64,000 bases of DNA from Capsulimonadaceae bacterium (GTDB lineage Bacteria; Armatimonadota; Armatimonadia; Armatimonadales; Capsulimonadaceae), in NCBI GenBank assembly GCA_031292625.1, contig JARLGU010000015.1:1-64000 (forward strand), given 5' to 3'. Shown here piece after piece: positions 50,319 to 56,627 of this stretch. The notes beneath the pieces are model-generated. The model had not been told where the DNA came from. It made no database searches and saw only the letters and a list, made by a program, of their open reading frames with translations. A program made the position numbers and the translations under genes. Position 1 is the first letter of the stretch; every line of letters begins with the position of its first letter.

Positions 50319-51263
50319 ATGATTCAAGAGCCAGTGCCACATGCGACGAATGGCTTCCGCATGGCGTTGCGGTTTGCGACGGCGGTAGGCCTCTTTGCGT
50401 CGCTCGCCTTCGTAGGCATATACTTCTTTTGCCGCGATACCCAAATCCAGCTGGTCGATAGCGATCTGGAGACGTCCACTACGTTGATCGGCGCTCAGTT
50501 CCAGGCGCAGGCTCAGACGAAGGCGCTTACCGACGCCGCTAAGCAAGCGACGAATGACCAGAATACGGGATGCGGAGACGACGACGATCAATGCGCGCGT
50601 CAAGGCGCCTCCAAGCGAGGCGGCGACGGCGCGGATAGCGATGGCGGCGACGGCGATGGAGGCGTTCCGAACTTCGTCAATACTATCGGAGCGGATCAGG
50701 ACAGGCCCGCCGATTACGATTCGCGTCTTTTCGTGCGTCTCGTCGACCAAACCGGGGCGACGGCGGCGGAATCGCCAAGTGTCCGGGGGCTGCCGGGAAT
50801 CGATGCTTCGTTGCGTTCCATTTCCGCTCGTGGCTCGGGACTGGCGCACGCGTTTGCGGGCGGCGGATCCCTTCCGGTGCTGCGCGTCGAGACGACGGAC
50901 TTAAAAGGGTACCGCCTTCAGGTTGCCCTTGCCTGGCACAGCCAGGCCGCGTGGCTCGTTGGACTGGCGGAATGGCTTGCCGGCGCATTGGCTCTCAGTA
51001 CGTTCCTCGCGGGCTGCGGCGGATATGCGGTTGCAAGGCGTCTTAGGGAGCCGGTCGTGACCAAGCAAACAGGCGCGGTGGTTGCGATGCGGAGTATAGA
51101 GGAAGATTCTCCGGTAAAGCGCCGCGCTCTAACGGAGGCTATCGTCGTCGAGAAGCAGGCGGATGTCGTTGAGGAAAAGCCTGAATCGGCGACGGTTAAA
51201 CGCTATGCGGTCGAGGATGAGGAAGAGCAGCAGGTAATCGGCCGGATTCCGCCGGATATCTAA
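50319..51263 (+). CDS. Two-TM membrane protein resembling a sensor kinase input module without kinase
   Basis: A 314-residue protein. Membrane helices lie near 21-38 ([16 protein letters not shown]) and near 214-235 ([19 protein letters not shown]), enclosing an extracytoplasmic domain of about 175 residues. That domain contains a Gly/Asp-rich segment with a Cys pair (CGDDDDQC, then [15 protein letters not shown]). The phrase [20 protein letters not shown] just before helix 2 resembles the input end of heavy-metal or QseC-type histidine kinases. The 80-residue cytoplasmic tail is charged and has no HAMP or kinase domain. I do not recognise a family. A strong terminator follows. Confidence 0.65.
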
Positions 51264-51293
51264 ATCGAACTCATATGTTTCCCTACAACAGCA

Positions 51294-51328
51294 AGCCGCG
51301 TCCAGAGAGTGATCTGCTGGACGCGGCT
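51294..51328 (+). terminator. Rho-independent terminator
   Basis: AGCCGCGTCCAG pairs perfectly with CTGGACGCGGCT (12-bp stem, 11-nt loop), followed by AATTCTATTGTGTTTTT. It lies 30 bp after the membrane protein gene. The 220 bp from here to the mgsA stop hold nothing recognisable. Confidence 0.75.
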
Positions 51329-51551
51329 AATTCTATTGTGTTTTTCTCTTGTGATGTTTCAGTTGTCAACTCAGTTGTTACGCCCATTGTGAGAGCGACA
51401 ACTCAATAATTCCATGATCGGTCGCTTTGTTCCCAAATTTCGCATTGCGGACGCGGATTTGAGAAAATCCGGTACTGTTGCCGGCGCGTGGAATTGCGAG
51501 GGCGCGGCGGCGCGGGAGGGCGGACCGGAGTCCCGTCGTGTTGTTGCGCTC

Positions 51552-51917
51552 TTACTCCAAGGTCGCGACGAGGATCTTGGCGGTCGCAAGGTTCGTTGCG
51601 AGGGGAATGTTGTGCGTATCGCAAACCTTCATGAGCGCCGAGATGTCTGGTTCGTGCGCATGGGCGGTGAGCGGGTCGCGCAAAAAGATTACGGCGGCGA
51701 TCTTGCCTTCGGCGACTTGCCCGCCGATCTGCAGGTCTCCGCCAAGCGGCCCCGAGAGCATCTTTTCGACGGTCAGGCCGACTTCCGCTTCGAGGTGCCC
51801 GCCCGTGGTTCGGGTGGCGATCAAGTCGTAGGCTTGGAGCGTCTGCTTATGGTCCTTGCAGAATGTGACGAGCTCATTCTTTTTTTCATCGTGTGCGATC
51901 AATGCGATTTTCGGCAT
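51552..51917 (-). CDS. mgsA: Methylglyoxal synthase
   Basis: A 121-residue enzyme converting dihydroxyacetone phosphate to methylglyoxal plus phosphate, a bypass of lower glycolysis under phosphate limitation. PKIALIAHDEKKNELVTFC is the N-terminal block, with the catalytic region LSGPLGGDLQIGGQVAEGKI near 54-73; its Gly-Asp carries the catalytic Asp. FLRDPLTAHAHEPDISALMK is also typical. GGAGAGG precedes the ATG. It is monocistronic. Confidence 0.95.
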   Translation of the reverse strand: MPKIALIAHDEKKNELVTFCKDHKQTLQAYDLIATRTTGGHLEAEVGLTVEKMLSGPLGGDLQIGGQVAEGKIAAVIFLRDPLTAHAHEPDISALMKVCDTHNIPLATNLATAKILVATLE

Positions 51918-52042
51918 GAAATCCTCTCCGGTTTTGGCTAGCGCGAGCGTTCAAATTGGCAATCGCCGCAGCGGCCTATCGAGTGAGTATAGCACATGCG
52001 CTTTCACGGGTAGAAAAGACGCCAAAATGTTGCCTTAGGTTA

Positions 52043-52071
52043 TTGACTGTCTATATATCGTGTGTTACAAT
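52043..52071 (+). promoter_or_regulatory. Promoter of nrdR
   Basis: TTGACT (52043-52048) and TACAAT (52066-52071) are exactly 17 bp apart. Transcription would begin near 52078, giving a leader of about 40 nt before nrdR. Confidence 0.8.
52048..52063 (+). promoter_or_regulatory. NrdR box 1
   Basis: The 16-bp site matches the NrdR-box core (CwAtATaTwGtgt) at 12 of 13 positions from its conserved C at 52051; the three outer bases before it do not match. It sits inside the spacer between the -35 and -10 elements, where bound NrdR would block RNA polymerase. Confidence 0.6.
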
Positions 52072-52079
52072 GTCTTGGT

Positions 52080-52095
52080 CTACAAGATGTAGGGA
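52080..52095 (+). promoter_or_regulatory. NrdR box 2
   Basis: CAAGATGTAG at 52083-52092 matches 8 of 10 core positions of the NrdR box. Its conserved C is exactly 32 bp after that of box 1. Tandem boxes about three helical turns apart are the standard NrdR arrangement. Confidence 0.5.
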
Positions 52096-52118
52096 AGAAG
52101 ATCCAACAGGCTTACAGG

Positions 52119-52610
52119 ATGAAGTGTCCGTTTTGCGGGACTGTCGATAACGATAAAGTACTCGATTCTCGTCCGGTTCGCGACAATACCGCCATCAAGC
52201 GGCGTCGCGAGTGCGAGCAGGAGCGCGGGGGATGCGGCCGGCGATTCACGACGTTCGAGACGATCGAGGAGCTGCAGCTGCAGGTGATAAAGAAGAATGG
52301 CGTCCGTGAGCCGTTCGACCGCAACAAACTTCTTGGGAGCCTATTGGTGGCGCTGAAGAAGCGTCCGGTTTCGACCGCGAAGATCGAAGAGGTCGTCGAG
52401 GATGTCGAGCGTGCATTGTCGAACCGGCTGGATAAGGAAGTCGATTCCGGCCTTATCGGCGAGCTCGTAATGGACCATTTGCGTGCTCTCGACCAGGTTG
52501 CGTACGTGCGCTTCGCATCCGTGTACCGGCAGTTCGAGGATGCAACGCAGTTTCGAGATATCGTGAATATTCTGCGCCGGCAGGAGGGCCGCCGGCACAT
52601 TAAGGAATAG
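52119..52610 (+). CDS. nrdR: Transcriptional repressor NrdR with expanded zinc ribbon
   Basis: A 163-residue nucleotide-sensing repressor of ribonucleotide reductase genes. The N-terminal zinc ribbon has CPFC (Cys3, Cys6) and a second pair Cys32 and Cys39. Between them are six residues (EQERGG) where the family has two, a four-residue insertion before the conserved GRRFTTFE. The ATP-cone follows (VIKKNGVREPFDRNKLLGSL, near 57-135). The start is set by MKCPFC; an in-frame ATG at 52062 lies upstream of the presumed transcription start. It precedes nrdJ by 201 bp in the same direction, and its own promoter has two NrdR-box-like sites. Confidence 0.95.
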   Translation: MKCPFCGTVDNDKVLDSRPVRDNTAIKRRRECEQERGGCGRRFTTFETIEELQLQVIKKNGVREPFDRNKLLGSLLVALKKRPVSTAKIEEVVEDVERALSNRLDKEVDSGLIGELVMDHLRALDQVAYVRFASVYRQFEDATQFRDIVNILRRQEGRRHIKE

Positions 52611-52811
52611 CGGCAGGACCTGGCGCCTCGGTTCCCCAATGGGCTCCCGTGATGGGATTGTCCGCGCGGAACGGCCAGGATGCCCGATAGAAGTTGGCTC
52701 ATTCGTCAACGAGATGAGGCGCAAGATCCCGCTCATTTTGGGAACGTGCGGAGTGGTATGAGTGCTCGACCGGACTAACTGCCGGCGAAAGAGAAGGAGA
52801 ACAGACGCTAA

Positions 52812-55769
52812 ATGTCCGACCATGGTTTCATCGGTGAGATTCCAGAGGCTGGCTTGCTCGATTCAGGACCGAGCAGCCTCGATATGTTCGCTGACCCCGA
52901 CGCGAACAAAGAGGGCGCAGCAAGCGAAGCCCCGTTTGGCGATGCGGATCACGCAAGCGCGCCTGCATTGAGACTTGCTCATGCTCCGCGCAAGCACTCG
53001 ATCGCCAAATCGCGCAAGCACGCCCCGGGTCTGAAGATCACGCGACGCTACACGGTTGCCGGCGAGGATGTTTGGAAGACCGCGCAGTATGAGCTGCGGA
53101 CAGCCAGCATCGTCAACGAGAAGGGCGAAAGCGTCTTCAAGCAGGAGGGGGTCGAGGTGCCGACCTTCTGGTCGCAAATGGCGACCAATATCGCGGCATC
53201 CAAGTACTTCCGAGGCCAACTTGGGACGCTCGATCGCGAATATTCGATTAAGCAACTCATCGAGCGCGTGGTGAATACCTTCGTCACGTGGGGACAGACG
53301 GGCGGATATTTCGCTGGCGAGGAAGACGCCGCCGCATTTTATGACGAATTGCGATATATTCTCCTTCACCAACTCGCGGCGTTCAATAGTCCTGTCTGGT
53401 TTAACCTTGGCTGGCCTGGCCGGCGTCAGGCAATCTCGGCTTGTTACATTAACGAAGTCGACGATAGCATGGAGTCGATCCTCGATTTGTACAAGACGGA
53501 GGGCATGCTATTTAAGGACGGCTCCGGATCAGGCGTCAACCTGTCTGCGTTGCGTTCGTCTCGCGAGCCCCTCGCGGCGGGCGGGCGTTCGAGCGGCCCC
53601 GTGTCGTTCATGAAGGGCCTTGACGCAAGCGCGGGGTCGATCAAGAGCGGAGGCAGCACCCGGCGGGCGGCGTGTATGCGCGTGCTCGATATCGATCATC
53701 CGGACGTCGTCGATTTCATTAGTTGCAAGAAGGACGCTGAAGAGAAGGCGCACGCGTTGATCGAGGCCGGCTACAGCGGAGCGTTTAATGTGGTCAACGG
53801 CGCCTACGACACCGTTCCGTTCCAGAACGCCAACCACAGCGTCCGCGTTACCGACGAGTTCATGCAGGCGGTCGAGGTCGATGGCCCATGGGATACGCGC
53901 AAGCGCACCAGCGGCAAGTCTGAGACGACCTATAAGGCCAAGGAACTCATGGCCAAAATTTCGGAGGCGACCTGGGTTTGCGGCGATCCCGGAATGCAGT
54001 TCGATACGACGATCAACGATTGGCACACCTGCTCGAACACGGACCGGATCTACGCAAGCAACCCGTGCAGCGAGTACATGTTCCTGAACTCTACGGCCTG
54101 CAACCTGGCATCGATCAACCTGATGCTGTTTCGCGATGCGGACTCCGGCGCGTTCGATGTGGATGCGTACAAGCATGTCGTTCGCATCCTAATAACCGCC
54201 CAGGAGATCGGCGTCGGCTTCGCGGAATATCCGACGCCGAAGATCGCGCAGCGCTCCTTCGAGTACCGCACGCTCGGATTGGGCTACGCGAATCTCGGCG
54301 CGTTGCTGATGGCGACCGGCCTGCCGTACGATAGCGACGGCGGTCGAGCTTACGCGGCGGCGTTGACGGCGATCATGACGGGGACGGCGTACGCGCAGTC
54401 CGCGGCGATCGCGCGGGACTGCGGCGGTCCGTTTGCCGGCTACGCCGTGAACAAGGAACCGATGGGCCGGGTGATGCGCAAGCATCGCGGCTCGGTGGAA
54501 CTGATCGATGACCGTCTCGTGCCGGGCGATCTGCTGCACGAAGCGCGCAATGCGTGGGACGAAGCCGTCGGTATTGGAGACAAGCATGGCTATCGCAATG
54601 CGCAGGCGACGGTTCTCGCCCCAACCGGGACGATCGGCTTCCTGATGGATTGCGACACGACCGGCGTCGAACCCGACATTGCGATCGTCAAGTACAAATC
54701 GCTGGTCGGCGGCGGGTTGATGAAGATCGTCAACCAGACAGTCCCCGAGGCGCTGCGACGCCTTGGCTACAACGGTCCGGACATGGAGGGCATCCTATCC
54801 TTTATCGACAAGAACGATACCATCGAAGGCGCGCCGGCGCTCAAGCCCGAGCACCTGCCGATTTTCGACTGTGCGTTTCGGCCGATGAACGGGACCCGCT
54901 CGATCCATTACAAGGGCCATATCAAGATGATGGCCGCCGTTCAGCCATTCATCTCCGGCGCGATCAGCAAGACGGTAAACGTCCCGGAGGACGCCACTGC
55001 GGCCGAAATTGCACAGACCTATATGGAGGCGTGGAAGCTGGGCCTCAAGGCGATCGCGATCTACCGCGATGGCAGTAAGAAGACACAGCCGCTCAGCACG
55101 AAAAAGGAGCCGGGAGCGACCGAGAAGGCGCTGCTTGAGACGATCCCCGCAAAGCCCGTTCGCCACAAGCTGCCCGATGAGCGCCGCTCGGTGACGCACA
55201 AGTTCAGCATCGGCGGCCATGAAGGCTATATTACGGTCGGCATGTACGAGGACGGCAACCCCGGCGAGATATTCGTCACGATGTCCAAGGAGGGCTCGAC
55301 GATCAGCGGCCTGATGGACGGCTTCGCGACCGCGATCTCCCTGGCGCTGCAATACGGCGTCCCGCTTTCGACGCTCGTGGATAAGTTCATCCATTCGCGG
55401 TTCGAGCCGAGCGGCTTCACGAACAACAAAGAGATCCCGATGGCCAAGTCCGTCATGGACTACATCTTCCGCTGGATGGCCCTCAAGTTCCTCCAGAAGG
55501 AAGACCGCCAGAACGTCGGCCTGGTTGCGGATCTCAAGATCGAGGATGACCCTGCCGCGAAAGCGGCCGTGAAACCCGCCGCATCGGAGAACGGCGCAGC
55601 CTCGAAGGCGATCCCGCTCATAACCGCCGCGTCGTTCGCCGATAAGGAGCGCGAGATCTTCCGTACCCAATCCGACGCCCCGCCGTGCCCGGACTGCGGC
55701 TCGCTAACCGTCCGCTCCGGCGCTTGCTACAAGTGCTTGCAGTGCGGAGCGAGTCTCGGCTGTTCGTAA
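52812..55769 (+). CDS. nrdJ: Adenosylcobalamin-dependent (class II) ribonucleoside-diphosphate reductase
   Basis: A 985-residue class II reductase converting ribonucleotides to deoxyribonucleotides with a cobalamin-derived thiyl radical. Barrel landmarks are NSPVWFNLGWPGRRQAISACYI with the first redox Cys, NPCSEYMFLNSTACNLASINL split here as NPCSEYMFLN and CNLASINL with the radical Cys and catalytic Glu, and APTGTIGFLMDCDTTGVEP. The C-terminal tail has CPDCG and CYKCLQCGASLGCS, a Cys-rich module that probably recycles the active-site disulfide. The first 70 residues are a variable extension. AAGGAG lies 13 bp before the ATG. Oxygen-independent operation makes it suitable at any oxygen tension. 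NrdR is encoded just upstream. Confidence 0.96.
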   Translation: MSDHGFIGEIPEAGLLDSGPSSLDMFADPDANKEGAASEAPFGDADHASAPALRLAHAPRKHSIAKSRKHAPGLKITRRYTVAGEDVWKTAQYELRTASIVNEKGESVFKQEGVEVPTFWSQMATNIAASKYFRGQLGTLDREYSIKQLIERVVNTFVTWGQTGGYFAGEEDAAAFYDELRYILLHQLAAFNSPVWFNLGWPGRRQAISACYINEVDDSMESILDLYKTEGMLFKDGSGSGVNLSALRSSREPLAAGGRSSGPVSFMKGLDASAGSIKSGGSTRRAACMRVLDIDHPDVVDFISCKKDAEEKAHALIEAGYSGAFNVVNGAYDTVPFQNANHSVRVTDEFMQAVEVDGPWDTRKRTSGKSETTYKAKELMAKISEATWVCGDPGMQFDTTINDWHTCSNTDRIYASNPCSEYMFLNSTACNLASINLMLFRDADSGAFDVDAYKHVVRILITAQEIGVGFAEYPTPKIAQRSFEYRTLGLGYANLGALLMATGLPYDSDGGRAYAAALTAIMTGTAYAQSAAIARDCGGPFAGYAVNKEPMGRVMRKHRGSVELIDDRLVPGDLLHEARNAWDEAVGIGDKHGYRNAQATVLAPTGTIGFLMDCDTTGVEPDIAIVKYKSLVGGGLMKIVNQTVPEALRRLGYNGPDMEGILSFIDKNDTIEGAPALKPEHLPIFDCAFRPMNGTRSIHYKGHIKMMAAVQPFISGAISKTVNVPEDATAAEIAQTYMEAWKLGLKAIAIYRDGSKKTQPLSTKKEPGATEKALLETIPAKPVRHKLPDERRSVTHKFSIGGHEGYITVGMYEDGNPGEIFVTMSKEGSTISGLMDGFATAISLALQYGVPLSTLVDKFIHSRFEPSGFTNNKEIPMAKSVMDYIFRWMALKFLQKEDRQNVGLVADLKIEDDPAAKAAVKPAASENGAASKAIPLITAASFADKEREIFRTQSDAPPCPDCGSLTVRSGACYKCLQCGASLGCS

Positions 55770-55815
55770 GAGCGGCGAAAGAGAACGATAGATAGGATAC
55801 GGGATCGTTGATACG

Positions 55816-55868
55816 GCCCCCTCCGGTTTCGCGGCGCGCAAGAAGCGCGATGCGCGACGGGAGGGGGC
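55816..55868 (+). terminator. Terminator between convergent nrdJ and CPBP genes
   Basis: GCCCCCTCC (55816-55824) pairs with GGAGGGGGC (55860-55868) over an inner GC-rich hairpin, followed by TGCTTCATATT. It probably serves both converging genes. Confidence 0.65.
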
Positions 55869-55886
55869 TGCTTCATATTGCTCCGC

Positions 55887-56627
55887 CTAGCGGGCTGCCA
55901 ACACTGCGCCGACGTCGAAAACCATGTGCGCAAGAAGGATGGGGGTGATGCGGCCAGTCCGCTGATAATAGACGGCGAAGACCATAAACAGAGGGAGATC
56001 GGCGATCGCGAAAAACCAGCCTTGGTAGAAATGATATGAGATCTGCAGGAGGACGCTCACCAGAATTGCGATCAGCGGCTTTTCGGTTTGGTAGGTCACT
56101 TCCGTTTGGACGTAGGCCCTGACGACGAGTTCTTCGTTAAACGGGTTGCAGACTGCGTAGAAGATCGCCGTCGCGAGACTGGCGCCGGTGAGGTGCGCGA
56201 GAAACGCGACATTCTTTGGTCCTGCCGTGTAAAAAGATCCGGAGAATAGGTACAGTCCCCATTGCAAAACATACGCGAACAGTTCGTAGCCCAACCATGC
56301 GGCTCCCGCCAGGAGCGCCGCGTGCGCAAAATCGCTTGAAGTGAAGCGCAGCCCGATGTCTCGTAGTGATCGTCCAGAGCGATGCAATACATAGGCGAGA
56401 AGAGCGACGGATGCGGCGGCATCAAAGGCAGCCATGGCGAAGTAGAAGGGCTCGGCGTGGCTAATGGGCGTGCCGTAGACCGCGATATAAGTCGAGTGAT
56501 ACAAAGCCGGCGCGATCGTAATCGCCAAGACAAGCGCCAGCTCGATTCCGCGCATGCGCCTTTCCGGCACGGGCGAGCGCTGATCAGTACGCGGCGGTTC
56601 GTCAATTGGGGGCGTTGCTGGCAGCAT
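55887..56627 (-). CDS. CPBP-family intramembrane metalloprotease
   Basis: A 246-residue protein with about seven membrane helices. The glutamate motif NEELVVRAYVQTE (EExxxR type) lies near 165, followed by the histidine motifs QISYHFYQG and PILLAHMVFDVGA, which complete the Abi/CAAX-type active site. Members process prenylated or bacteriocin-like peptides or act as membrane scaffolds; the substrate here is unknown. The gene stands alone, convergent with nrdJ. The N-terminal 25 residues are proline-rich and cytoplasmic. Confidence 0.88.
   Translation of the reverse strand: MLPATPPIDEPPRTDQRSPVPERRMRGIELALVLAITIAPALYHSTYIAVYGTPISHAEPFYFAMAAFDAAASVALLAYVLHRSGRSLRDIGLRFTSSDFAHAALLAGAAWLGYELFAYVLQWGLYLFSGSFYTAGPKNVAFLAHLTGASLATAIFYAVCNPFNEELVVRAYVQTEVTYQTEKPLIAILVSVLLQISYHFYQGWFFAIADLPLFMVFAVYYQRTGRITPILLAHMVFDVGAVLAAR

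Follow-up and report, generated by a model that had tools for sequence, protein, structure and literature searches.

Two short palindromes lie over the promoter of nrdR, a gene followed on the same strand by the ribonucleotide reductase gene nrdJ. The question raised by this locus is whether the two palindromes belong to a single operator for the repressor NrdR, and whether such an operator governs nrdJ as well as nrdR itself. The locus lies in the window, the whole 64,000-nucleotide stretch of DNA that was analysed, which comes from a genome of the Armatimonadota, and the same arrangement was followed in related genomes.

The nrdR promoter and its two boxes

The locus comprises the following features.

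51552-51917, minus strand: mgsA, methylglyoxal synthase gene, the divergent neighbour (TIGR00160)
52043-52048, plus strand: -35 hexamer TTGACT of the nrdR promoter (sequence and consensus scan; TTGAC stands directly 5' of box 1 in most relatives)
52048-52063, plus strand: NrdR box 1, TGTCTATATATCGTGT (core 9/10; profile match 52050-52094)
52066-52071, plus strand: -10 hexamer TACAAT, in the linker separating the boxes (consensus scan; TAnnnT at the same place in relatives)
52080-52095, plus strand: NrdR box 2, CTACAAGATGTAGGGA (core 8/10; profile match 52050-52094; at the inferred transcript start)
52119-52610, plus strand: nrdR, 163 amino acids, zinc ribbon and ATP cone (TIGR00244, 180 bits against a cut-off of 124.65; PF22811, PF03477)
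52611-52811, plus strand: nrdR-nrdJ gap, 201 bp, with no consensus promoter, plus-strand terminator, box pair or Rfam match
52812-55769, plus strand: nrdJ, adenosylcobalamin-dependent class II ribonucleotide reductase, 985 amino acids (family scores)

The preliminary description had placed tandem NrdR boxes 32 bp apart over the nrdR promoter, box 1 at the -35/-10 region and box 2 at the start of the transcript. Direct reading of the sequence agrees with both statements, with the refinement that box 1 overlaps the -35 hexamer by one base, its first base being the last of the hexamer (52048). The promoter, TTGACT-17-TACAAT, matches the consensus at 10 of 12 positions and carries TG ahead of the -10 hexamer. 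It is the only sigma-70-like site in 51000-56000, a stretch whose shuffles average 1.8 such sites. Both boxes are palindromic, with the conserved C and G 9 bp apart (52051/52060 and 52083/52092), and together they overlap the promoter of the nrdR operon as defined by its consensus. The offset between C 52051 and C 52083 is 32 bp and the spacer between the boxes is 16 bp. This spacing had been described as usual for NrdR sites, and rightly so, since in the available part of the source spacers are 15-16 bp in most bacteria and those of 14-17 bp bind well (PMC12051234). The weak points of the site are that box 2 is poor outside its core and that box 1 has C instead of A/T at one core position. 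A third box further upstream (52020-52035, offset 28) was dropped for its wrong spacing and weak sequence. Control of mgsA by the boxes was also set aside; they lie 131 bp from the mgsA start, and nothing speaks in favour of it.

A single-box match of 12/16 to the NrdR-box consensus occurs three times on the plus strand of the window, and single-box scoring was given up because a single box is not significant alone. When both strands of the window are scanned, this is the only C- and G-anchored pair with an offset of 31 or 32 and a core of at least 16/20; a minus-strand match is its own reverse reading and was not counted again. Pairs with a core of at least 17 were found neither in 60 first-order random 64-kb windows nor in 5000 201-mers of local composition. 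A sequence-only profile (R1) was trained on the nrdR promoters of 23 relatives, with the window's genome excluded; the C and G columns are invariant in these relatives, where C and G had been required at selection. In the 5.77-Mb genome R1 gives one match at E≤10, at 52050-52094 (E 0.0069), and its score of 19.3 bits is the eighteenth best among the matches listed over 61 genomes.

Conservation of the boxes and predicted control of nrdJ

Alignment of the nrdR upstream regions of relatives had been proposed as a check, and it shows the layout of the boxes and the order nrdR-nrdJ to be conserved. The nrdR loci of 29 relatives were compared, 28 of which have enough upstream sequence; in the 29th (G003) only 55 bp are available, which contain box 2, box 1 being off the contig. 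Twin boxes with a core of at least 15 and an offset of 31 or 32 precede nrdR in 19 of the 28, most of which have TTGAC ahead of box 1 and TAnnnT in the linker. By core score 9/28 upstream regions have no pair, and R1 finds nrdR-adjacent sites in five of these nine (G019, G023, G033, G037 and G050). In a second set, which includes some of the same organisms, a pair with a core of at least 14 is present at 21 of 27 Armatimonadota-type loci (L062-L088) and at only 4 of the 53 remaining loci, those of related nrdR genes outside the phylum. At 26 of the 27 loci nrdR is followed by nrdJ; the contig of the 27th stops after 960 bases.

The profile R1 has a match at E≤1 in 36 of the 61 genomes, and in 33 of the 36 it lies at most 400 bp upstream of nrdR or nrdJ; 21 of these 33 genomes, the window's own included, are outside the training set. 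Where nrdJ is apart from nrdR (G020, G047, G060 and G032), R1 places the pair before nrdJ itself. A second profile (R2) was trained without the window's genome and without any nrdAB promoter, with L076, L083 and L030 from the R1 set omitted. In G012 and G007, R2 alone revealed a pair immediately 5' of nrdB, in front of the class I nrdBA operon. Separately from the profiles, one protein set excluded L089, L116, L132 and L136, of which L136 alone was noted to contain a stop. Because the pairs move with reductase genes, they are better identified as NrdR operators than by the motif alone.

The assignment of nrdJ rests on family scores of 1363.9 bits against 859 (NF005122) and 549 against 400 (TIGR02504). 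No other reductase was found in the genome (96% complete), in which the large-chain family has one match and the small-chain and NrdD families none. Pfam detects no ATP cone in NrdJ, so that dATP sensing would fall to NrdR. In several relatives the nrdJ matches are split by large in-frame insertions, as expected of inteins, near residue 420 (G004 and G036) or near residue 608 (G011, G052 and G018), and these split genes are long open frames.

The preliminary description had also seen no evident promoter for nrdJ in the 201-bp gap. The consensus scan bears this out, finding neither a promoter consensus nor a plus-strand terminator-like site there, although a missing consensus promoter is no proof of promoter absence. 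A search of the locus with Rfam returned no family, and the RNA fold of the gap is nothing unusual against shuffles (z = 0.98). Joint control of nrdJ is likely, because the gap has no promoter consensus, terminator, RNA family or notable fold.

By its sequence, the site is a twin NrdR operator of the ordinary, known kind, comparable to the one at Streptomyces nrdRJ, in a new phylum. A mechanism can be drawn by analogy with Streptomyces coelicolor, where cryo-EM and binding experiments on the nrdRJ promoter, in the accessible part of the report, have a dATP/ATP-loaded NrdR tetramer on both boxes that bends the DNA and blocks the polymerase (PMC9110341). When dATP is plentiful, a tetramer of NrdR carrying both dATP and ATP would bind both boxes, which, three helical turns apart from centre to centre, would be held by one tetramer. 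The bound NrdR would occupy both promoter hexamers together with the transcript start and thereby block RNA polymerase. In this way nrdR itself would be repressed, and nrdJ would be repressed too by read-through across the gap.

Alternatively, the boxes might govern nrdR only, with nrdJ transcribed mainly from a gap promoter that is invisible to a sigma-70 consensus scan. The gap here is indeed longer than in many relatives, and in G009, G012, G013 and G016 a pair precedes nrdR while matches to class II nrdJ are only weak, at about 25% identity, none being close to the query. This reading is nevertheless unlikely in view of the position of nrdJ after nrdR in 26 of 27 loci, the separate pair before each of the four unlinked nrdJ genes, and the gap's want of a promoter consensus. 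The two boxes very probably constitute one NrdR operator that represses nrdR and, through read-through, nrdJ, as is suggested by the anatomy of the site, its uniqueness, its conservation and the gene order. Autoregulation together with joint control of nrdJ, as originally predicted, is thus supported as the best reading of pairs that occur at nrdR in most relatives and at nrdJ where the two genes are unlinked.

Box pairs upstream of dnaE and mraZ in relatives

An operator at nrdR is expected in kind; what is unexpected is the presence of box pairs at dnaE and mraZ in relatives. The gene dnaE encodes the replicative DNA polymerase III alpha, and mraZ heads the cluster of division and cell wall genes. 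At E≤1, R1 has 21 matches that belong to neither nrdR nor nrdJ. These were at first regarded as chance, a view overturned by the seven that lie upstream of mraZ and the four upstream of dnaE; no target gene was assigned to the other ten. The genes at the off-target pairs were confirmed as MraZ, RsmH and DNA polymerase III alpha. Matches near comEC, phoU and a tyrosine recombinase gene were put down as probable chance.

The 300 bp upstream of dnaE and of mraZ were scanned in 39 of the 61 genomes each, taking the best pair per region with an offset of 30-33; these are the genomes for which a locus with enough upstream sequence was obtained. Pairs with a core of at least 16 are present in 11 of 39 genomes for dnaE and in 11 of 39 for mraZ, and pairs with a core of 15 in two more and one more, respectively. 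Dinucleotide shuffles of the fetched dnaE and mraZ regions reached a core of at least 16 once in 2580 and once in 2820. The dnaE pairs (L176, L178, L179, L182, L238, L264, L265, L270, L227 and L244) are found in families f1, f2, f3, f5, f9 and f24, and the mraZ pairs (L175, L177, L180, L181, L186, L191, L194, L195, L197, L219 and L256) in f1, f2, f5 and f24. At dnaE the four f5 genomes agree in every core column of both boxes (10/10 and 10/10), compared with 126 invariant columns of 280 elsewhere, although the linker is also invariant at 14/15. At mraZ in the same genomes, 9/10 and 10/10 core columns are invariant against 130 of 267 elsewhere, and 8/15 in the linker. Upstream of mraZ in G002 and G006 (L194 and L195), there are apparently three NrdR-like boxes in a row, not two.

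These pairs suggest a wider NrdR regulon in relatives. Against a wide one count the facts that the four f5 genomes are one genus, that most genomes examined show nothing at dnaE or mraZ, and that the pair of G039 is far from dnaE, 228 bp upstream. The matches of R2 at mraZ and dnaE are not independent, because R2 was trained on such pairs. The dnaE promoter of the genome that contains the window (L248) has TACAAT followed by GCACTACTGGTTGAGC and GGCCAAGATGTAGTAT, a pair with a score of 14 whose first box is decayed. It occupies the same place as that used by the family members G001, G004 and G005, and is reported by neither R1 nor R2. Upstream of mraZ in this genome there is no box pair. Two further observations concern other genomes. 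A strong box pair (R2 E 0.004) lies at a contig end in G005 (L292, 3696-3739), with no adjoining gene identified, and in three genomes of family f15 (G031, G044 and G057; 97% completeness) no nrdR and no strong dnaE or mraZ pair were found.

A search of the open-access literature returned no report of NrdR sites in Armatimonadota (Armatimonadetes), and none at dnaE or mraZ is evident there, as judged by listings. The work of Rodionov and Gelfand from 2005, reportedly the founding comparative study of NrdR, may list further targets.

The NrdR protein and comparison with known systems

The protein encoded by nrdR exceeds the curated TIGR00244 cut-off and has a zinc ribbon followed by an ATP cone. 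Its DNA-reading Asp-Ser-Arg motif is intact (DSR at residues 16-18, matching D15/R17 of S. coelicolor NrdR), and the arginine run reads KRRR instead of RRRR, a variant shared by many relatives in the phylum. NrdR is described with two CXXC motifs in the part of PMC12176259 at hand. Here the first zinc knuckle is C-x2-C and the second is C-x6-C (CEQERGGC, residues 32-39), with four extra residues and with all four cysteines kept. The protein is named NrdR because of its family score and domains, despite this departure. The second knuckle is C-x2-C in 108 of 110 NrdR sequences compared, a set that counts some organisms twice, and the exceptions are this NrdR and that of G003. Among 291 genomes of the phylum, the exact C-x6-C pattern occurs in two (this one and G003) and the C-x2-C form in 177, the counts covering these two lengths only.

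The altered knuckle might have changed the DNA specificity of NrdR or ended its binding, leaving the operator as a relic. The restriction of C-x6-C to this genome and G003 would fit this reading, as would the decayed dnaE pair and the absent mraZ pair of the window's genome. However, G003 has the same knuckle and keeps box 2 at nrdR and a strong mraZ pair (core 17), the Asp-Ser-Arg motif is unaltered, and the AlphaFold2 model of NrdR is confident over residues 31-40 (pLDDT 86); a relic operator is highly improbable. That the pair is a chance resemblance in AT-rich promoter DNA, as an unremarkable single 12/16 box might be, deserves almost no credence beside the empty random sequences, the sole genome-wide R1 match and the layout conserved in relatives.

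With the predicted operator at nrdR-nrdJ, the well understood NrdR feedback circuit is extended to a phylum that has been little studied, and to an organism in which a B12-dependent reductase is the only one found. As for the wider regulon, it is moderately probable that, in several Armatimonadota lineages, the dATP/ATP state of NrdR throttles reductase, dnaE and mraZ together, and that in the lineage of the window the regulon has contracted to nrdR-nrdJ and a decayed dnaE pair, with an unusual NrdR knuckle. Should NrdR indeed control dnaE and mraZ, the supply of precursors would be coupled to replication and division through a single nucleotide-sensing repressor.

Several known systems can be compared with this locus, as far as the accessible parts of the reports describe them. 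In P. aeruginosa (Pseudomonas aeruginosa), topA offers a precedent for NrdR action beyond reductase genes, comparable with the dnaE and mraZ pairs, although a single box and activation are involved there, in contrast to the full pairs at dnaE and mraZ in relatives (PMC4409342). The nrdHIEF and nrdDG operons of E. coli likewise have two 16-bp boxes in their promoter regions, 15 bp apart, but they are class I and class III reductase operons, unlike the one here (PMC12176259). The closest likeness is to nrdRJ of S. coelicolor, where nrdR is followed by the class II gene nrdJ, and two palindromic boxes about three turns apart, each with conserved C/G pairs 9 bp apart, lie over the promoter. From one box to the other, the distance between conserved bases is 31 bp there and 32 bp here, and in Streptomyces the class I nrdAB operon is also under NrdR, whereas nrdJ is the only reductase found here (PMC9110341).
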